From the NCBI GenBank assembly GCA_030523345.1, contig JAUNIR010000016.1, forward strand, positions 1,663 through 36,049: a stretch of 34,387 bases of DNA. Direction: 5' to 3'. The stretch is from Lachnospiraceae bacterium. GTDB taxonomy: Bacteria > Bacillota > Clostridia > Lachnospirales > Lachnospiraceae. The notes under the pieces are model-generated. The model saw nothing but the letters and a program-made list of their open reading frames with translations, did not search any database and had not been told where the DNA came from. This document shows positions 1-34,387 of this stretch, piece by piece (within the stretch, counting starts at the first letter, position 1; each line of letters opens with the position of its first letter). Both the position numbers and the translations under genes were made by a program.

Positions 1-552
1 GCGACAATTATTGGCTCTATTGGAGCAATTGGTATGTACAAATATAAATTTAAGGGAAAGTCAATTATTGATGGACTTCTTTATATACCTGTTGTAATCC
101 CAGAAATTGTATTAGGTATATCGCTTCTAACAATATTTGCAAAAGTAAATATTCCTAGAGGAATGCTTACATTGATTCTGTCTCATGTCACATTTTGTGT
201 GCCATTTGTCATATTTAATGTAAGGGCAAGATTGTCGGGATATGATAATTCAATTGAAGAAGCAAGTATGGATTTAGGTGCAAATAGACTGGTTACATTT
301 TTTAATATTACGCTTCCTGTCTTAGCACCAGGTATTATGGGTGGTGCGCTTTTAGCATTTACATTGTCTATTGATGATGTGATTATAAGTTATTTTGTAT
401 ATGGTCAGACAAAGACATATCCATTGAAGGTTATGGAAAGTGTTAAGAGTGGTGTTGCACCAGATGTAAATGTTCTTTCTACATTGATACTTGTTGGAAC
501 AATATGTTTTGTAGTATTGACACAAAGTGACTTATTAAAAAGAAAAAAATGA
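1..552 (+). CDS. potC: Spermidine/putrescine ABC transporter permease PotC, 5'-truncated by window edge
   Basis: This is the C-terminal part of an inner-membrane permease of a polyamine ABC importer. The reading frame is open from base 1, so the gene begins outside the window; the ATG at 34 is internal. Several hydrophobic membrane segments are visible. The cytoplasmic EAA loop that docks onto the ATPase is clear (EEASMDLGANRLVTFFNITL, about residues 82-101 of the visible part), followed by LPVLAPGI, as in binding-protein-dependent permeases. The DDVIISYFVYG stretch resembles the PotC C-terminus. It sits 75 bp before potD, and the ATPase and PotB genes are presumably further left. PotC rather than PotB is inferred from its position directly before potD and from the tail. 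Substrate specificity within polyamines cannot be read from the sequence. Confidence 0.9.
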   Translation, partial: ATIIGSIGAIGMYKYKFKGKSIIDGLLYIPVVIPEIVLGISLLTIFAKVNIPRGMLTLILSHVTFCVPFVIFNVRARLSGYDNSIEEASMDLGANRLVTFFNITLPVLAPGIMGGALLAFTLSIDDVIISYFVYGQTKTYPLKVMESVKSGVAPDVNVLSTLILVGTICFVVLTQSDLLKRKK

Positions 553-627
553 TTTGTTAATGAACTGGTATATGTAAAAAGATGAGAGACGCATATATCT
601 GAAAACATTACAAAAGGAGGAAATATT

Positions 628-1686
628 ATGAAAAAGAGATTATTAGGATTACTGATGAGTGTGGCTATGGTCGCTACAATGCTGATTGGATGTGGTGGTG
701 GATCAAAGTCTGCTGAATCTAATGGCGAATTAAATGTATTTGTGTGGACAGAGTATGTCTCAGATGCAGCAATTCAAGCTTTTGAAAAAGAAACTGGAAT
801 TAAAGTAAATGTTTCAACATTTTCATCAAACGAAGATATGCTTGCAAAGTTCAAATCTGAGTCAGAAGGAACTTACGACATTTTGTTACCAAGTGATTAT
901 GCCGTTGAATACTTAGTAGCACAGGATAAACTTATTGAGCTTGATAAGGAAAAGCTTCCAAATATCGCCAATATCAACAGTGCATATTTAAATCCAAGTT
1001 ATGATCCAGATAATAGGTACAGCGTGCCATATGAAGGTGGTGTAGCATGTATTGCTGTTAATAAATCAAAGGTCGATAAAGAAATCACATCATATGATGA
1101 TTTGTTTGACGCTTCGCTTGCAGGAAAGGTCGTAGTACTCGATGACTATAGAGCTATTATCGGTATGACAGCAAGAAGTATGGGATATTCAATGAATGAA
1201 ACTGATGACGCCAAGCTTGCGGAAATACAAGATAAGTTGCTTACATTTAAGGATAATGTAAAGCTTTATGATTCTGATTCACCAAAGTCAGCTCTTATTT
1301 CAGGCGATTGCACAGTAGGTATGGTTTGGTCTGCTGAGGTTGCACTTTCAATGGATGAAAATCCAGATATTGACATCGTATATCCATCAGAAGGAGCATA
1401 TGTATTTCTTGATAACTGGGTAATTCCAAAGGGTGCAAAAAATGTAGATAATGCATATGCTTTCATTGATTTCATGATGAGTGCCGAAGGCGCTAAGATG
1501 AACATTGAGGACTTCCCTTATCTTTGTCCAAATGACGCTGCACTTGAGCTTATGGGTGAAGATTATGTGAATAACGTAGCAAAAAATGTTCCTGCAGAGG
1601 TTATTTCTGGTGGTGAATTTGTTAAGTATTTAGATTCAGCTGTATTGGCTAAGTATGACGAAATGTGGACTAAGCTTAAACAGTAA
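628..1686 (+). CDS. potD: Spermidine/putrescine-binding lipoprotein PotD
   Basis: This 352-residue extracellular solute-binding protein delivers polyamine to the PotABC importer. It has a lipoprotein signal peptide (MKKRLLGLLMSVAMVATM) ending in a lipobox L-I-G-C, so Cys22 is the predicted lipidated residue, followed by a GGGSKS linker. The mature part has the periplasmic-binding fold of the PotD/PotF family: LNVFVWTEYVSDAAIQAFEKE near the start, YDILLPSDYAVEYL, then VPYEGGVACIAVNKS, and VFLDNWVIPKGAKNVDNAYAF toward the C-terminus. Length is normal for the family. The start is fixed by AAAGGAGG at about 614-621. It ends 20 bp before the start of the next gene and has no terminator after it, so potC, potD and the cyclodeaminase-like gene are probably co-transcribed. 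The ligand could be putrescine, spermidine or agmatine; the neighbouring agmatine genes make agmatine or putrescine attractive. Confidence 0.93.
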   Translation: MKKRLLGLLMSVAMVATMLIGCGGGSKSAESNGELNVFVWTEYVSDAAIQAFEKETGIKVNVSTFSSNEDMLAKFKSESEGTYDILLPSDYAVEYLVAQDKLIELDKEKLPNIANINSAYLNPSYDPDNRYSVPYEGGVACIAVNKSKVDKEITSYDDLFDASLAGKVVVLDDYRAIIGMTARSMGYSMNETDDAKLAEIQDKLLTFKDNVKLYDSDSPKSALISGDCTVGMVWSAEVALSMDENPDIDIVYPSEGAYVFLDNWVIPKGAKNVDNAYAFIDFMMSAEGAKMNIEDFPYLCPNDAALELMGEDYVNNVAKNVPAEVISGGEFVKYLDSAVLAKYDEMWTKLKQ

Positions 1687-1706
1687 TATTCGTGTTAGAG
1701 GCAAAT

Positions 1707-2855
1707 ATGAAAATAGATTTTTTATACCTTAATGAAGAAGATATGATAAAGGCAGGAGTTCTTGATGCAGGAAGATGTATTGAGACAATGAGAGACACGC
1801 TTTCGCTATTTGGTAAAAAAGATTTTTTACTTGGTGGGCCAAAAGCAGATGAGCATGGGCTACAGATGAATTTTCCGCAGAAATCAGACATAGAAAATTT
1901 TCCTTTGGATGATGGTCCTGATAGAAGATTCATGGCTATGCCAGCTTATCTTGGCGGTAGATTCCATATTGCCGGTCAGAAGTATTATGGTTCAAATAGC
2001 CATAACTCTGCGTTGGGGCTTCCAAGATCTATCTTGATGGTTACTTTATCTGATGTAGATACAGGTGCACCAAAGGCTATAATGTCTGCAAACCTCTTAA
2101 GTGCTATGAGAACAGGAGCTATGCCTGCCATGGCAGCAATCTATCTTGCTAATAGAGATAGTGAAGTTCTTTCATTAATTGGACCGGGAGTAATTAATAA
2201 GTGTGCGCTTATGTGTTACATGGAGGTTCTTCCGAATATAAAGAAGATTAAGTTAAGAGGTAGTTCTGTTACATCTAAAACTGCTCTTGAAATGAAAGAG
2301 TACATAATTGAAAACTATCCTCAAGTAAAAGAAATAGAGATATGTGATAGTTTAGAATCTGCTTGCCGCGATGCAGATGTTGTAAGCGAGGCAATGAGTG
2401 TATCAAAAGAAAACATGGAAGAATTTAAGCTTGAGTGGTTTAAAAAGGGTGCAACAGTATTTTCTATGGGATCATTCCTTTATAGACAGTACAATGATTT
2501 TATGAATACTAAAATGGTTGTAGACAACTATGGAATGTATAAAAAATATTTAAGTAATTTTATTGCAAGAGGTCCTGTTGATGAGCTCGGTAACAAGAGA
2601 GAATGGGTCATCATGGGAATCCATTTTGTACATCTTGTGGAAAGTGGAGTCGTCCCTAGAGAACAAGTCACAAACCTTTGCGATATAGTAAATGGTGTAT
2701 CAAAGGGTAGAGAAAATAAGGATGAAATAGTGATGTGTTCAATAGGTGGTATGCCACTTGAAGATCTTTCATGGGGATATGATTGCTACCAAAAAGCATT
2801 AGAACTTGGAATAGGAACGAGTCTAAATCTCTGGAATGAGCCATTTATGAAGTAA
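1707..2855 (+). CDS. Ornithine cyclodeaminase / mu-crystallin superfamily protein, paralogue 1
   Basis: A 382-residue member of the ornithine cyclodeaminase/mu-crystallin superfamily, whose characterised members are NAD(P)-linked deaminating cyclases or imine reductases. Supporting stretches are LGLPRSILMVTLSDVDTGAP, MSANLLSAMRTGA and the Rossmann region VLSLIGPGVINKCAL. The dinucleotide loop reads GPGVIN instead of the usual GxGxxG/A, so cofactor binding may be altered. The ATG at 1707 is chosen over an upstream in-frame GTG at 1692 because AGAGG lies just before it and the paralogue at 5098 begins at the same place. Overall it resembles that paralogue throughout, but lacks the final glycine of the loop. 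Close relatives in clostridia have, as I recall, been labelled 'tyramine oxidase subunit B' in automatic annotation; I cannot verify that, and the reaction here is unknown. It is probably translated from the pot transcript, and a hairpin follows it. Confidence 0.8.
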   Translation: MKIDFLYLNEEDMIKAGVLDAGRCIETMRDTLSLFGKKDFLLGGPKADEHGLQMNFPQKSDIENFPLDDGPDRRFMAMPAYLGGRFHIAGQKYYGSNSHNSALGLPRSILMVTLSDVDTGAPKAIMSANLLSAMRTGAMPAMAAIYLANRDSEVLSLIGPGVINKCALMCYMEVLPNIKKIKLRGSSVTSKTALEMKEYIIENYPQVKEIEICDSLESACRDADVVSEAMSVSKENMEEFKLEWFKKGATVFSMGSFLYRQYNDFMNTKMVVDNYGMYKKYLSNFIARGPVDELGNKREWVIMGIHFVHLVESGVVPREQVTNLCDIVNGVSKGRENKDEIVMCSIGGMPLEDLSWGYDCYQKALELGIGTSLNLWNEPFMK

Positions 2856-2875
2856 ATACTTAGTAAGTAATAAAG

Positions 2876-2905
2876 AAGGGCAATGAGAATTAATTCATTG
2901 CCCTT
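2876..2905 (+). terminator. Hairpin between cyclodeaminase paralogue 1 and aguB, weak intrinsic terminator or leader
   Basis: A perfect 11-bp stem pairs AAGGGCAATGA (2876-2886) with TCATTGCCCTT (2895-2905) around an 8-nt loop. The tail is only TTTAAAT, so termination should be partial. It lies 21 bp after the upstream stop and about 37 bp before the aguB start, and no obvious promoter separates it from aguB. Confidence 0.6.
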
Positions 2906-2942
2906 TAAATGTTAACTAAATGCTTGAAAGGAAGTTAATAAC

Positions 2943-3803
2943 ATGAGACATGTTAAAGTTGCAGCAACCCAAATGAGTTGTTCATGGGATAAGAAAGAAA
3001 CATTAATGAAAGCTGATAATCTAGTACGTAAAGCGGCAAAGGAAGGTGCTGAAATAATTCTTATTCAGGAGCTCTTTGAGACACCATATTTTTGTAAGCT
3101 TCAAAAGTTTGAATATATGGAGCTTGCAACCACAATAGACGAAAACCCGGCAATAAAGCATTTTTCCAAAGTTGCAAAAGAGTTAGAAGTGGTACTACCA
3201 ATAAGTTTTTTTGAGAAGGTTGGAAACACACAGTTTAATTCGATAGCAATCATTGATGCTGATGGTTTAATACTTGGAACTTATAGAAAAACACATATAC
3301 CAGATGGTCTACCGTATGCTGAAAAATTTTACTTCACACCTGGAGATACAGGTTTTAAGGTATGGAAAACAAAGTATGCAACGATAGGTGTGGGTATATG
3401 CTGGGATCAGTGGTTCCCAGAAGCGGCAAGATCTATGGCGTTACTCGGTGCAGAGATTTTGCTATATCCAACGGCTATAGGTTCAGAACCAACATTAGGA
3501 AAAGATTCGTCTGTGCATTGGAGAAATACTATGGCAGGACATGCCGCTGCAAATATGATGCCAGTAGTAGCATCGAATAGAATCGGAAGGGAAATAGATG
3601 AGGAAGCTGAAATAACATTTTACGGAAACTCATTTATTGCAGATAATCATGGTGAAATTGTAAAGCAGGCGGATAATTGTACAGAATCAATATTGGTGCA
3701 TGAATTTGATTTGGACGAGTTATCGAAAGAACGTCGTGAATGGGGAATCTTTAGAGATAGAAGACCTGAAATGTACAAAACAATACTTACTCATGGAGAA
3801 TAA
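2943..3803 (+). CDS. aguB: N-carbamoylputrescine amidase
   Basis: This 286-residue cytoplasmic nitrilase-superfamily hydrolase cleaves N-carbamoylputrescine to putrescine, CO2 and ammonia, the last step of agmatine use. The catalytic triad is visible: Glu43 in LIQELFETPYF, Lys116 in YRKTHIPDG, and Cys153 in GVGICWDQWFPE. The substrate-pocket stretch HWRNTMAGHAAANMMPVVASNR is typical of AguB rather than of omega-amidase or beta-ureidopropionase. Length is standard. GGAAG at 2931-2935 precedes the ATG. Only two bases separate its stop from aguA, so the pair is translated from one message, the usual arrangement of the agmatine deiminase pathway. A hairpin at 2876-2905 lies just upstream and may modulate expression. 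Confidence 0.95.
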   Translation: MRHVKVAATQMSCSWDKKETLMKADNLVRKAAKEGAEIILIQELFETPYFCKLQKFEYMELATTIDENPAIKHFSKVAKELEVVLPISFFEKVGNTQFNSIAIIDADGLILGTYRKTHIPDGLPYAEKFYFTPGDTGFKVWKTKYATIGVGICWDQWFPEAARSMALLGAEILLYPTAIGSEPTLGKDSSVHWRNTMAGHAAANMMPVVASNRIGREIDEEAEITFYGNSFIADNHGEIVKQADNCTESILVHEFDLDELSKERREWGIFRDRRPEMYKTILTHGE

Positions 3804-3805
3804 TT

Positions 3806-4903
3806 ATGGCAAATAGAATTATAGGAACTACACCTAAACAGGACATGTACAGAATGCCTGCGGAATATGAACCGCAAAGAAGAATATATATGATATGGCC
3901 ACAGCGTACAGATAATTGGAGGGCTGGAGCAAAGCCAGCTCAGGAGGCCTATACAAATGTCGCGAAGGCAATAAGTGAATTTACACCGGTTACAATGTTG
4001 ACAAATAGCAATCAGTTTGTTAATGCAAGAAATAGACTTCCGGCGGATATTAAAGTTGTGGAAATGAGTTCTAATGATGCCTGGGTAAGAGACTGTGGTC
4101 CTACTTTTTTAATAAATGATAAAGGAAAATTGCGTGCATGCGATTGGAAATTCAATGCATGGGGTGGTCTCGTAGATGGTTTGTATTTTCCATGGGATGC
4201 TGATGATACTTTGGCAGAAAAGGTTTGCGAACTGGAAGATGCAGATAGTTATAGGCTTGATAATTTTATATTGGAGGGAGGTTCATTTCATGTAGATGGT
4301 CAAGGTACAGTTTTAACAACCGAAATGTGTTTATTATCAGAGGGCAGAAATAGTCATCTAAGTAAAGAAGAAATAGAGAACTATCTATGTAACTATCTTA
4401 ATTGTGACAAAGTATTATGGCTTAAGGACGGAATAGATCCAAATGAAACTAATGGGCATGTAGATGATGTTGCGTGTTTTGTTAGACCTGGAGAAGTTGC
4501 GTGCATATATACGGATGATGAAAACGATCCATTCTATGGAGTAGCACAAGCTAATTATGAAGCGTTATTAAATATGAGAGATGCTAAAGGACGAAAACTG
4601 AAGGTTCATAAAGTTTGCACTACTGCAAAACCGGTTTTATTAAAAGGTGCAGAGACAATAGATATAGTTGAAGGAACAATTCCAAGAAGGAATGGAGAGA
4701 TGTGTATTGCATCATATTTGAACTTTCTGATTACAAATGGAGGAGTTATTGTTCCACAATATGATGATGAAAATGATGAGTTGGCTATTTCGCAACTTAG
4801 GGAAATTTTTCCTGATAAAAAGGTTGTAGGTGTGAGAACAAAAGAAATAGTATACGGCGGGGGTAACATTCATTGCATAACTCAGCAGGTGCCGGAGACT
4901 TAA
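3806..4903 (+). CDS. aguA: Agmatine deiminase
   Basis: This 365-residue enzyme of the guanidino-group-modifying (PPAD) superfamily converts agmatine to N-carbamoylputrescine and ammonia. The N-terminal MPAEYEPQRRIYMIWPQRTDNW is the hallmark opening of the family. The catalytic residues are all present: Asp and Arg in DAWVRDCGPTF, His in NETNGHVDDVACF, and the nucleophile Cys357 in GGGNIHCITQQ. TGGAG lies just before the ATG. The gene follows aguB by two bases, and together with the pot genes this makes a complete import-and-convert route from agmatine to putrescine. No carbamate kinase or putrescine carbamoyltransferase is in the window, which fits the AguB (amidase) route and not the catabolic ptcABC route. 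It ends 125 bp before a strong terminator. Confidence 0.96.
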   Translation: MANRIIGTTPKQDMYRMPAEYEPQRRIYMIWPQRTDNWRAGAKPAQEAYTNVAKAISEFTPVTMLTNSNQFVNARNRLPADIKVVEMSSNDAWVRDCGPTFLINDKGKLRACDWKFNAWGGLVDGLYFPWDADDTLAEKVCELEDADSYRLDNFILEGGSFHVDGQGTVLTTEMCLLSEGRNSHLSKEEIENYLCNYLNCDKVLWLKDGIDPNETNGHVDDVACFVRPGEVACIYTDDENDPFYGVAQANYEALLNMRDAKGRKLKVHKVCTTAKPVLLKGAETIDIVEGTIPRRNGEMCIASYLNFLITNGGVIVPQYDDENDELAISQLREIFPDKKVVGVRTKEIVYGGGNIHCITQQVPET

Positions 4904-32532: not shown

Positions 32533-32710
32533 CAAGTCACTCGTTAAAACCTATCAAATTCACTTCTGGCAAATCAAATCGCCAACGAATTTCAGGTTAT
32601 TAAAAAATATTAATTGCTTTCATTGGCGTAATAGATGTCAGTTATAATCACAGTTGCTGAATTAAATACGCTATAGAAAGTTGCATTGCCATAGGCAGAA
32701 AGGCGTATTT

Positions 32711-33538
32711 ATGGAAAAGAAAAAGAACTATGAAGAATTAACAATTAGAGATCATTTCATGTTTGGAAAGATATGTTCTAAGCCAGAGATTCGAAAGTTG
32801 ATTCTAGATTCATTACTGCAAATCGATCTTCAAGAAAAGTATGGAGAAATAGAAAAACAAATTAGAGAATTTAAGGATGCAAAGTATGCAAGACTCGATT
32901 TACTTGTAGAAGATGAGAAGGGAGCAGTATATGATACAGAAATGCAGAACAAATCAAAGGATAGAGCACGTCAGGATGAATTGCCAAAAAGAGGAAGATA
33001 CTATCAGTCGATAATTGATACTTCATATGCAAATAGTGGAGAAGAATACTTAAATCTTCCAGAATTATTTATAGTGTTTATATGTACATATGATCCATTT
33101 GGAGAGAATTTACCTATATATACATTTGAGAGTAAATGTTTAGAAAAAGAAACAATAAAGTATGATGAAAAAGTACATAAAATCTTTTTTAATACAACTG
33201 CAGATTTATCATGTCTCCCACAGAATATGAAAAATATGTTAGAATATATAAACACAGGAGCCACTAATGATAAGGCAACAGAACTAATAGATGAAGAGGT
33301 AAAAGAAGCCAGACTTAAAGAAGAATGGAGGGCGGAATATATGCTTACTGTTGTTCATGATAAAGATGTATATAGAGATGGTTTTGAGGATGGCAAGGAG
33401 CAGGGAATAGAGCAAGGAACATTTACAACTACAATTAATCTTATTAAAAATTTAATGGAGTCGTTAGAGATTACATTTGATGAAGCATGCGATAAGTTAT
33501 GTATTAAAGATAAAGAAATCTACAGATCACATATATAA
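32711..33538 (+). CDS. Rpn/PD-(D/E)XK nuclease family protein (transposase-like)
   Basis: A 275-residue member of the Rpn/PDDEXK_2 family (recombination-promoting nuclease / putative transposase). The fold signature is in YARLDLLVEDEKGAVYDTEM followed by QNKSKDRA (the Asp and E-x-Q of the nuclease core); RAEYMLTVVHDKD and a glycine-rich GFEDGKEQGIEQG hinge precede a C-terminal helical part. ATG 32711 follows AAAGG; an in-frame TTG at 32681 is not supported. Some Rpn genes are known to encode a short C-terminal inhibitor from an internal start, and this gene has such a site at 33341. The protein is probably a DNA nuclease; a mobile-element or defence role is possible. No terminal repeats are visible. 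Confidence 0.85.
   Translation: MEKKKNYEELTIRDHFMFGKICSKPEIRKLILDSLLQIDLQEKYGEIEKQIREFKDAKYARLDLLVEDEKGAVYDTEMQNKSKDRARQDELPKRGRYYQSIIDTSYANSGEEYLNLPELFIVFICTYDPFGENLPIYTFESKCLEKETIKYDEKVHKIFFNTTADLSCLPQNMKNMLEYINTGATNDKATELIDEEVKEARLKEEWRAEYMLTVVHDKDVYRDGFEDGKEQGIEQGTFTTTINLIKNLMESLEITFDEACDKLCIKDKEIYRSHI
33341..33538 (+). CDS. Possible internally initiated 65-aa C-terminal product of the Rpn-like gene
   Basis: An ATG at 33341 is in frame with the nuclease gene, and GGAGGG (33327-33332) sits 8 nt upstream, the best-placed site in this gene. It would yield residues 211-275 (MLTVVHDKDV...YRSHI). In Rpn proteins a short C-terminal form made from an internal start is reported to inhibit the full-length toxin. 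The bases of the site also encode EWRAEYM, a conserved-looking stretch of the protein, so the site could be a by-product. Confidence 0.4.
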   Translation: MLTVVHDKDVYRDGFEDGKEQGIEQGTFTTTINLIKNLMESLEITFDEACDKLCIKDKEIYRSHI

Positions 33539-33556
33539 TTATGAGAGGACTTTAAA

Positions 33557-33718
33557 ATGGCAAATGAACTAGATATAAATGAGGTATTAAAAACAATTCC
33601 ACCTGAAATGGTTGAGGATATGAAAAAGCAAGCTGAAAAGTATGGGTTTCCATTTGAGGAATATGTACAATCAGTTCTTGGTGCAATTATAATGGATCCT
33701 GATTTGGGAGCATATTGA
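33557..33718 (+). CDS. 53-residue acidic protein downstream of the Rpn-like gene, ribbon-helix-helix-like
   Basis: A 53-residue protein, MANELDINEVLKTIPPEMVE to the end DPDLGAY, starting at ATG with GAGAGG about 8 nt upstream and ending before a terminator. The stretch MKKQAEKYGFPFEEYVQSVL resembles the second half of small ribbon-helix-helix antitoxins (helix, turn, helix with 'EYV'), but there is no clear N-terminal strand, and I do not claim the family. The 18-bp gap to the nuclease gene suggests co-expression. Confidence 0.65.
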   Translation: MANELDINEVLKTIPPEMVEDMKKQAEKYGFPFEEYVQSVLGAIIMDPDLGAY

Positions 33719-33767: not shown

Positions 33768-33837
33768 ATTTTATATAGAAGATTATCATCACAAGTATTT
33801 CAAGAATTATACCTAAAAGGTATAACAAACCAATCAT
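33766..33837 (-). CDS. Possible 23-residue single-helix membrane peptide
   Basis: Reading the reverse strand from ATG 33837, a 23-residue, almost entirely hydrophobic peptide (MIGLLYLLGIILEIL...) ends at 33766. A good ribosome-binding sequence lies upstream but 21 nt away, and the nearest start codons to it lead straight to stops. The hydrophobicity resembles small membrane toxins or transporter accessory peptides, but nothing else supports translation. Confidence 0.18.
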   Translation of the reverse strand: MIGLLYLLGIILEILVMIIFYIK

Positions 33838-33846
33838 AATATGTAT

Positions 33847-33875
33847 TTCACATAATTACTCCCCTGCGTTATTAT
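33847..33875 (+). promoter_or_regulatory. Putative promoter of the micropeptide unit
   Basis: TTCACA (33847-33852) and TATTAT (33870-33875) with a 17-bp spacer, each one mismatch from consensus, about 80 bp before the first micropeptide start. It follows the Rpn-unit terminator, so the micropeptides are transcribed independently. Confidence 0.55.
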
Positions 33876-33954
33876 AATATCAACAAGAGAGATAAGTAAT
33901 AAAAAGTACTACAAATTCATTCCATTCAAATAATAAATAAAGGAGGTAGCGGTT

Positions 33955-34005
33955 ATGATTAAAGAATTTCTTAAAGAGTATTACGGAACATTTGGCAGAC
34001 GTTAG
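33955..34005 (+). CDS. Micropeptide 1, 16 residues
   Basis: MIKEFLKEYYGTFGRR, with AGGAGG at 33941-33946 spaced 8 nt before the ATG, an excellent initiation site. No signal peptide and no cysteine. It shares the decamer EFLKEYYGTF with micropeptide 2, encoded with different synonymous codons, which is good evidence that the peptide is the selected product. The N-terminal half could form an amphipathic helix and the end is basic. Function unknown; similarity to PSM-like secreted peptides, type I toxins or regulatory leader peptides is only by size. Confidence 0.65.
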   Translation: MIKEFLKEYYGTFGRR

Positions 34006-34042
34006 TTGACAAGAATTTAGAAATTTACAGGAGGTAGAAACT

Positions 34043-34099
34043 ATGAAGGTTAGAGAATTCTTAAAAGAGTATTATGGAACATTCGCACATAAGAAGTAG
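34043..34099 (+). CDS. Micropeptide 2, 18 residues, paralogue of micropeptide 1
   Basis: MKVREFLKEYYGTFAHKK, with AGGAGGT just upstream of the ATG at 34043. Over the ten shared residues the two genes differ in four codons (ttt/ttc, ctt/tta, tac/tat, ttt/ttc) and all four are synonymous. The ribosome binding sites are also nearly identical. The gene begins 37 bases after micropeptide 1 ends, on the same apparent transcript, and the basic C-terminus is conserved in character (RR vs HKK). Confidence 0.65.
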   Translation: MKVREFLKEYYGTFAHKK

Positions 34100-34125
34100 G
34101 CTGTAATGTGAAAGCAGGTGATTAT

Positions 34126-34158
34126 ATGTTAAAGGAAGTATTTAATCCAGTATTATAG
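34126..34158 (+). CDS. Possible micropeptide 3, 10 residues
   Basis: MLKEVFNPVL with a weak AGGTG before ATG 34126; an in-frame GTG at 34108 would give 16 residues. It lies inside the micropeptide transcript and shares only LKE with the first two, so translation is uncertain. Confidence 0.25.
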   Translation: MLKEVFNPVL

Positions 34159-34171
34159 GAGAAAATTGAAT

Positions 34172-34201
34172 ATGGTGACAATTAGAGATGTTAATCTATA
34201 G
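34172..34201 (+). CDS. Possible micropeptide 4, 9 residues
   Basis: MVTIRDVNL with GGAG ten nt upstream of ATG 34172. It ends at the base of the terminator stem. It could equally be chance; no similarity to the other peptides. Confidence 0.2.
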   Translation: MVTIRDVNL

Positions 34202-34241
34202 CCCATGCTGAAGTTGATTCGGTGTGGGCTTTCTCTTTTTT
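34200..34241 (+). terminator. Intrinsic terminator of the micropeptide unit
   Basis: AGCCCATGCTG (34200-34210) pairs with CGGTGTGGGCT (34220-34230), including G-U pairs, across a 9-nt loop; the tail is TTCTC followed by six T. It gives the micropeptide transcript a defined end. Confidence 0.85.
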
Positions 34242-34335: not shown

Positions 34336-34387
34336 ATGAATATTCAGATTTTTGGTACTAAAAAATGCAATGATACAAAGAAAGCAG
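34336..34387 (+). CDS. ArsC/Spx-family (arsenate-reductase-like) thioredoxin-fold protein, cut by window edge
   Basis: Only 17 codons are present (MNIQIFGTKKCNDTKKA). The beginning beta strand followed by G-T-K-K-C-N-D-T-K matches the N-terminus of the ArsC/Spx-like family of small thiol proteins, with a single cysteine at position 11. ACAGG lies upstream of the ATG, and its own promoter is in place. The rest lies outside the window. Confidence 0.7.
   Translation, partial: MNIQIFGTKKCNDTKKA

Follow-up and report, generated by a model that had tools for sequence, protein, structure and literature searches.

In the OxyR/OxyS system, a LysR gene is accompanied by a divergent small transcript, OxyS, which acts as an RNA. 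We know of no micropeptide that is driven by GltC, the LysR regulator of Bacillus subtilis. GltC is encoded next to the gltAB glutamate synthase genes and has boxes at the promoter, as described in excerpts of PMC6794564. Small proteins that control nitrogen metabolism have precedents elsewhere. In Methanosarcina mazei, the 23-residue sP26 interacts with the glutamine synthetase GlnA1; in the excerpts available from this source, its effects on activity are called small and stable binding in vitro is said not to have been found (PMC11957540). According to parts of PMC10714827, the 61-residue sP36 of the same organism is a regulator of AmtB1-GlnK1 that acts on ammonium transport. The cyanobacterial IF7 and IF17 (7 and 17 kDa) are controlled by NtcA and bind glutamine synthetase (GS) by an arginine-based contact (PMC6316151, in excerpt).

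Here we analysed a stretch of 34,387 nucleotides, called the window below, which belongs to contig C244 of genome G000 and finishes at the same end as the contig. By eye, the window starts with an apparent polyamine cluster of ABC transporter parts and genes resembling those for N-carbamoylputrescine amidase and agmatine deiminase (34-4903). Near its end lie an Rpn/PD-(D/E)XK-type gene with a 53-aa frame behind it (32681-33718) and the start of an ArsC/Spx-like gene (MNIQIFGTKKCNDTKKA, 34337-34387), which is cut by the contig end; both were also recognised by eye.

The mini-operon and selection on its peptides

At the end of the window lies a mini-operon of 9-18-residue peptides that is real and under selection (Table 1).

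Table 1. Features of the micropeptide unit and their positions in the window
Feature	Position	Strand	Description
LysR-type operator (predicted recognition site)	33809-33823	+	ATACCTAAAAGGTAT; dyad ATACC-N5-GGTAT
Probable LysR activation half-site	33839-33851	+	ATATGTATTTCAC; overlaps the weak -35
-10 element	33870-33878	+	TATTATAAT; position constant in 22 aligned units
Purine-rich transcript 5′ end, conserved	33880-33895	+	TCAACAAGAGAGATAA
sORF1	33955-34005	+	MIKEFLKEYYGTFGRR, 16 aa; SD site; decamer under purifying selection
sORF2	34043-34099	+	MKVREFLKEYYGTFAHKK, 18 aa; SD site; decamer under purifying selection
sORF3	34126-34158 from ATG, or 34108-34158 from GTG	+	MLKEVFNPVL, or 16 aa from GTG
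sORF4	34172-34201	+	MVTIRDVNL, 8-9 aa; in 4/4 units of the two closest species
Intrinsic terminator	34200-34241	+	13-bp stem and T run

The unit is present twice in the genome of the window (the window copy and L008 on contig C196) and twice in the congener G029 (L009 and L010). All four units share the operator, promoter, leader, core peptide or peptides, sORF3, sORF4 and terminator; L008 encodes a single core peptide and the other three units encode two each. The preliminary description had proposed an independent transcription unit with two paralogous peptides between a promoter and a terminator. Both frames were confirmed as described, with strong Shine-Dalgarno sequences at 33939-33947 and 34028-34035, as was the terminator, and the proposal of an independent unit is supported. 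Its extent was correctly given at the terminator end, but the unit begins further upstream than had been thought, with the operator. Neither this operator nor its regulator nor the spread across the family was part of that description.

The two further short frames that had been mentioned, sORF3 and sORF4, are likewise found in each of the four units that the two closest species carry. The ATG of sORF3 at 34126 is preceded by the Shine-Dalgarno-like AGCAGGTGAT, and both nonsynonymous and synonymous changes were seen in this frame, which was not recognised in the remaining genus units read. The counterparts of sORF4 in the other three units are MVNIRNVN or MVKIRNVN, with the stops TAG, TAA and TGA. 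A stretch resembling sORF4, followed by a terminator, was also found in the same genome behind a gene for a 190-aa lipoprotein-like product (L041, G000:C47:5563-5704), with ACG in place of the ATG. As this copy without an ATG precedes a terminator, sORF4 may be part of a terminator element.

The peptides of sORF1 and sORF2 share the decamer EFLKEYYGTF, in which four codons differ, all of them synonymously, as had been stated; these differences comprise five nucleotides. In a simulation, five random changes kept the decamer intact in about 1/20,000 trials. Among seven copies of the core, 81 of 81 pairwise codon differences within the decamer were synonymous (pN/pS 0.03, compared with 0.84 and 3.2 in shifted frames), and 14 peptides of the commonest type in the genus set gave a pN/pS of 0.13 (shifted frames 2.2 and 3.5). 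Changes on both sides of a base pair were found in 3 of the 13 pairs of the terminator helix across the four units and in 0 of 22 pairs elsewhere, coding-region helices included, a comparison comprising four sequences. Folding of the whole unit was not below that of shuffled sequences (z -0.37), and Rfam returned no family. The synonymous changes in the decamer, together with both-side changes in the terminator helix only, support the earlier view that the peptides rather than the RNA are selected. This view also survived the search for homologues, since homologous peptides exist in related genomes and the decamer is kept across them through synonymous change. Purifying selection acts on the peptide.

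Distribution of the unit, its operator and its LysR partner

When the upstream 89 nt of the four units were turned into a sequence model (R1), it recovered this region in many congeners, with micropeptides and their ribosome sites behind it (for instance MLKKILEFIEEYYEEFSHSEKW and MKKFLLHLEEMLEAYYKTFA). A second set of weak R1 sites (20 stretches) contained one operator, located before glnN (L102). With a model of the 3′ half of the unit (R2), matches at E ≤ 1e-5 were confined to the two species, apart from the terminator-like L041; the matches read were those below E 0.016. The 22 genus units served to build model R3, which identified 26 sites in 21 of 37 genus genomes at E ≤ 4.4e-7. Twenty-two of these are intact micropeptide units in 19 genomes, which form the training set of R3 and were found by construction. 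The remaining sites are two operators before glnN (G014 and G033) and two decayed units (L084 in G030:C302 and L124/L135 in G013:C23), in which an internal deletion fuses the operator to the tail of the micropeptide gene. Strong operator sites in the genus scan face only micropeptides, intact or decayed, and two glnN genes. Because two species of the genus carry decayed units, the peptide seems dispensable there; both G030 and G013 retain the LysR gene elsewhere.

In 299 genomes of the family, R3 gave 57 sites at E ≤ 1e-3, of which three fall in the own genus. Reading covered 42 of the 54 sites outside the genus. A micropeptide is carried by 13 sites, all at E ≤ 7e-10 and in 13 genera, and no core peptide was recognised at the other 29 sites read (E ≥ 7e-9; Shine-Dalgarno filter 6 or more), the loci of which have a LysR-like gene in 21 of 27 cases. 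The total amounts to 35 micropeptide loci with 38 peptides of 16-25 aa, in the genus and 13 other genera of the family, and the core of these peptides is F-x-E-Y-Y-x-x-F. In a draw of 391 genomes of the class, four besides the own genome passed R3 at E ≤ 1e-6. Three belong to one genus of another family (f45) and have the operator directly before gltB; one of them also has it directly before amtB. The fourth match is in a third family, where the site precedes a 118-aa frame that is MerR-like by eye. The filters of these large scans were strict, so absence in them is soft.

Exact peptide patterns are too narrow for this peptide family. A peptide pattern matched eight stretches in genome contigs, two of which are the own units of G029. 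The other six, together with two stretches in viral contigs, were rejected as chance matches: three of these eight lie in frames of 13-22 codons, and none has a start preceded by a Shine-Dalgarno sequence. The only match to exact EFLKEYYG outside the own genome in 397 family genomes was also rejected, as it lies within a 763-codon open frame. NCBIfam gave no family for the one peptide tested, Pfam nothing at its cut-off for four peptides tested, and in the open-access PMC literature we found no description of a LysR-linked micropeptide of Lachnospiraceae or of this peptide family.

A LysR gene of one clade adjoins the unit at 22 of the 35 micropeptide loci (12/22 genus units and 10/13 others). 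The adjacent gene is divergent to the unit except at L165, where both have the same direction and LysR is upstream, and at L008 a 100-aa frame is found between the two. LysR orthologues (E ≤ 1e-60) are present in 22 of 37 genus genomes, and 21 of these 22 have the unit, intact in 19; at this level units were found in 0 of the 15 genus genomes without LysR (best R3 match E 0.005, unread). Fisher's test gave 1.7e-9 for this co-occurrence and 8.7e-8 for intact peptides, both not corrected for kinship. In G007, the LysR gene is close to the contig end, with the box present and no unit seen. In the family draw outside the genus, LysR (E ≤ 1e-70) was found in 16 genomes, 13 of them with the unit, and a recognised unit was found in 0 of 281 genomes without LysR, with 42 of the 54 R3 sites there read (Fisher 3e-20, not corrected for kinship). 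In two of the three LysR-positive family genomes without the unit, the available DNA does not extend upstream of LysR, and the LysR of the other, G302, is the most divergent (43% identity). In addition, an ATACC-type box is retained immediately before several of the relocated LysR genes, which suggests autoregulation of LysR. The LysR match of G018 (G018:C80:62759-63637, L203) contains one TGA.

When two of the LysR proteins were compared with NCBIfam, AlsR, CidR, HcaR and GltC were among the nearest models, all below the cut-off. The GltC model scored 137.6 and 140.9 bits at a cut-off of 350, which neither protein reaches. Among relatives of solved structure, BenM and CatM match the L008 LysR best. 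In a LysR tree, the LysRs of micropeptide loci, including the relocated ones of the genus, and the gltB-linked LysRs of f45 form one group (35 rows, support 90/90), within which the f45 proteins branch with the LysRs of G028 and G007 (100/98); the LysR of G028 is micropeptide-adjacent.

A different LysR group is found at L171-L174 and L184 and at the related L179, L180, L182, L185 and L195, with a related operator (ATAC...GTAT followed by ATATGTATTTGATAT). In five of these cases the operator precedes a gene starting like MAEANDVYGSIYQNLIDAGCD, as judged by eye. The whole looks like a second LysR regulon.

The preliminary description had placed a promoter at 33847-33875. A scan alone did not bear this out (8 sites found and 10.1 expected by chance), but the position overlaps the -10 element, and the promoter is credible because the surrounding 89-nt region is conserved between the four units. 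In the alignment of 22 units, columns 2-4 and 13-16, at the operator, are invariant, as are ten columns (32-41) at the probable activation half-site, the T, the A and one later T of the -10 element, and C74, A75, A78, A79, G80 and A81 at the transcript 5′ end. The dyad of the operator is centred at about -66 from the inferred start, with near-fixed spacing in the 22 units, a position typical of LTTR binding as an activator. A second half-site, ATATGTAT, lies near -40 with a weak -35. From LTTR promoter anatomy, the half-site at 33839-33851 would have a role in activation, and this anatomy predicts an activation that depends on an inducer. Both a T-N11-A dyad (ATAC-N7-GTAT) near -65 and an adjacent or co-occurring LysR gene were thus found, as in an LTTR-type promoter. 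The window operator fits the LTTR consensus ATAC-N7-GTAT as well as the form favoured by CatM, ATAC-pyrimidine-N5-purine-GTAT, both as quoted in excerpts of PMC6628147.

Nitrogen genes near the LysR clade

The LysR clade is linked to nitrogen genes and, from its gene neighbourhoods, appears to control nitrogen assimilation. With a query set of gltB/D, amtB, glnN, asnB, carA/B, purF, guaA and pyrG, nitrogen or glutamine genes were found within 3 kb at 11 of 35 LysR-clade loci, a count that can be inflated as the 10 query genes were drawn from these same loci. The comparison loci had 0/13 (micropeptide loci without LysR) and 1/27 (other R3-weak loci). For 11/35 versus 1/40, Fisher's P is 9e-4, and without family f45 (8/32) it is 0.008. 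At 24 of the 35 LysR-clade loci, none of the 10 tested genes lies within 3 kb. The single positive among the 27 R3-weak loci is L178, the LysR of which is sister to the micropeptide clade. At this locus (G273:C12), the LysR gene faces a gene for CTP synthase, the operator match is weak, and guaA is also near.

Within 6 kb, L008 in the own genome has gltD-gltB, and L085 has gltD, amtB, asnB and guaA. L080, L082, L227 and L228 have genes from the set carA, carB, amtB, purF and glnN, and L081 and L139 from glnN, asnB and pyrG. At this distance, gltB and/or gltD are present at 5 of 35 LysR-clade loci (L008, L085, L234, L235 and L236). Family models support glnN at L081, gltB and gltD at L008, the amidotransferase part of gltB at L220, L221 and L223, amtB at L082, L085 and L225, asnB at L081 and L085, guaA at L085 and pyrG at L178; carA, carB, purF, the pyrG of L081 and the gltD of L085 were identified from partial domain hits or by eye. 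Two of the ammonium transporters are fused to a P-II domain (L082:6319-8115 and L085:1631-3409).

The link to nitrogen genes is further supported by f45, where the operator lies directly before gltB in three genomes and before amtB in one, and where the LysRs group with that of G028. None of the four f45 sites read, where the operators precede gltB and amtB, showed a core peptide, suggesting that this type of regulator needs no peptide. At L081 and L102, glnN has its own promoter-like TTGACA/TATAGT between the operator and the gene (by eye), so the operator at these glnN loci may serve the LysR gene only.

Possible role of the micropeptides

The peptides show no signal sequence. Their helical moment reaches at least the 98th percentile of shuffled sequences in 22 of 38 peptides and at least the 95th in 25 of 38. 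None of the seven window-type peptides is significantly amphipathic (shuffle fractions 0.21-0.58), and amphipathicity as a defining trait was discarded, as it fails for the window's own peptides. These seven are basic and 20 of the 31 others are net negative. In a count limited to genes of at least 80 aa, no gene except LysR recurs at more than 5 of the 38 loci, and no shared exporter, receptor or immunity gene was found among them. We read the peptides as probably intracellular and protein-binding. Leaderless secreted peptides, small toxins and regulators had been named as candidates in the preliminary description. A regulator is favoured, because a LysR that has nitrogen genes as neighbours is the partner and no other gene of that size recurs at more than five loci, and the first two roles fit worse.

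In the reading that we prefer, the window unit would be one of two copies of a LysR-regulated micropeptide operon in the genome. The LysR encoded beside the other copy, next to gltD-gltB, is predicted to bind ATACC-N5-GGTAT and the ATATGTAT half-site and would activate the promoter, the -35 of which is poor, in response to nitrogen status, probably signalled by 2-oxoglutarate, glutamate or glutamine. Translation of this short mRNA from its strong ribosome sites would yield peptides of 16-25 residues, with a core F-x-E-Y-Y-x-x-F that is amphipathic in most relatives. These peptides would remain in the cytoplasm and bind a nitrogen-assimilation protein, possibly GS type III, glutamate synthase or an ammonium transporter with a PII domain, which would be tuned, up or down, after translation. 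The operator is conserved, the LysR clade co-occurs with the unit and this clade is linked to nitrogen genes; the precedents sP26, sP36 and IF7/IF17 count in favour as well. Points that weigh against this reading are the 24 LysR-clade loci at which no tested nitrogen gene is near, the origin of the query genes, the genus operators that face only micropeptides and two glnN genes with promoter-like sequences of their own, the basic and not significantly amphipathic peptides of the window's type, and the decayed units. In our judgement there is an even chance that a nitrogen-status LysR drives a micropeptide which binds a protein, perhaps this LysR, and so tunes nitrogen metabolism. A more specific form, in which a nitrogen-sensing LysR has the peptide as its main conserved output and the peptide directly represses or stimulates the activity of GS-III, glutamate synthase or the Amt-PII fusion, is a tentative proposal that we would sooner expect to fail than to hold. 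The same tentativeness applies to the combined claim of such direct control and of a previously undescribed micropeptide family shared by 14 or more genera within a single bacterial family.

Instead of a nitrogen enzyme, the target could be the LysR protein, with the peptide serving as an anti-activator or as a co-factor in feedback. No partner other than LysR was found to co-occur with the peptide almost without exception, and at most loci the two are neighbours. However, such co-occurrence is equally expected if LysR merely drives the gene, and the f45 LysRs have operators before gltB and amtB with no core peptide at the sites read, so that we attach a rather low probability to this alternative. 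The divergent arrangement of the LysR gene and a small transcript, together with the conserved purine-rich 5′ end, would also suit a regulatory RNA beside its LysR gene, as for OxyS and oxyR, with the peptide being incidental. Selection at the codon level argues against this, as do the confinement of both-side changes to the terminator among the four sequences, the unremarkable folding and the lack of an Rfam family, which make such an RNA improbable.

The length of the peptides, the missing signal sequence, the basic ends in the window and the high helical moment (shuffle fraction ≤ 0.02 in 22/38) are in line with a secreted leaderless peptide, either a signal or a small toxin of the phenol-soluble-modulin-like or type I kind. 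There is little chance of this, as most peptides of other types than the window's carry a net negative charge and have a conserved aromatic core, LysR is the only gene of at least 80 aa that recurs at more than 5 of the 38 loci, and a nitrogen-type LysR would not be the usual regulator of a toxin or signal. Short frames followed by a terminator and then by genes are also what leader peptides of a transcription attenuator controlling the downstream gene would look like. This is very improbable, since the downstream genes vary by locus, the core has no run of a single amino acid longer than two (Y-Y), and one transcript holds up to four ORFs.

If the more specific form, with direct action on GS-III, glutamate synthase or the Amt-PII fusion, is true, few known regulators of central metabolism in bacteria would be as small as this peptide. 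Such short genes usually escape annotation; here selection keeps one in at least 14 genera with its own regulator. This offers a way into the question of how nitrogen assimilation may be adjusted post-translationally in these bacteria, and the peptides are short enough for direct synthesis and binding tests.

Compared with known systems, the unit resembles OxyR/OxyS in its divergent layout, whereas it is selected on codons and OxyS is an RNA. GltC is a LysR encoded beside glutamate synthase genes (PMC6794564, in excerpt), and here such genes lie within 6 kb at 5 of the 35 LysR-clade loci; the AlsR, CidR and HcaR models outscore that of GltC. IF7 and IF17 are small proteins too; they bind GS under the nitrogen regulator NtcA, are larger and come from another phylum (excerpts of PMC6316151). 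Likened without sequence comparison, sP36 is also linked to nitrogen, but it is about three times longer and archaeal (PMC10714827, in part). In length and nitrogen link the micropeptides are most like sP26, again without sequence comparison, which is archaeal as well (PMC11957540, in part). As in the sP26/sP36/IF7 type, a short coding frame appears to be under selection here, as judged from pN/pS values of 0.03 and 0.13.
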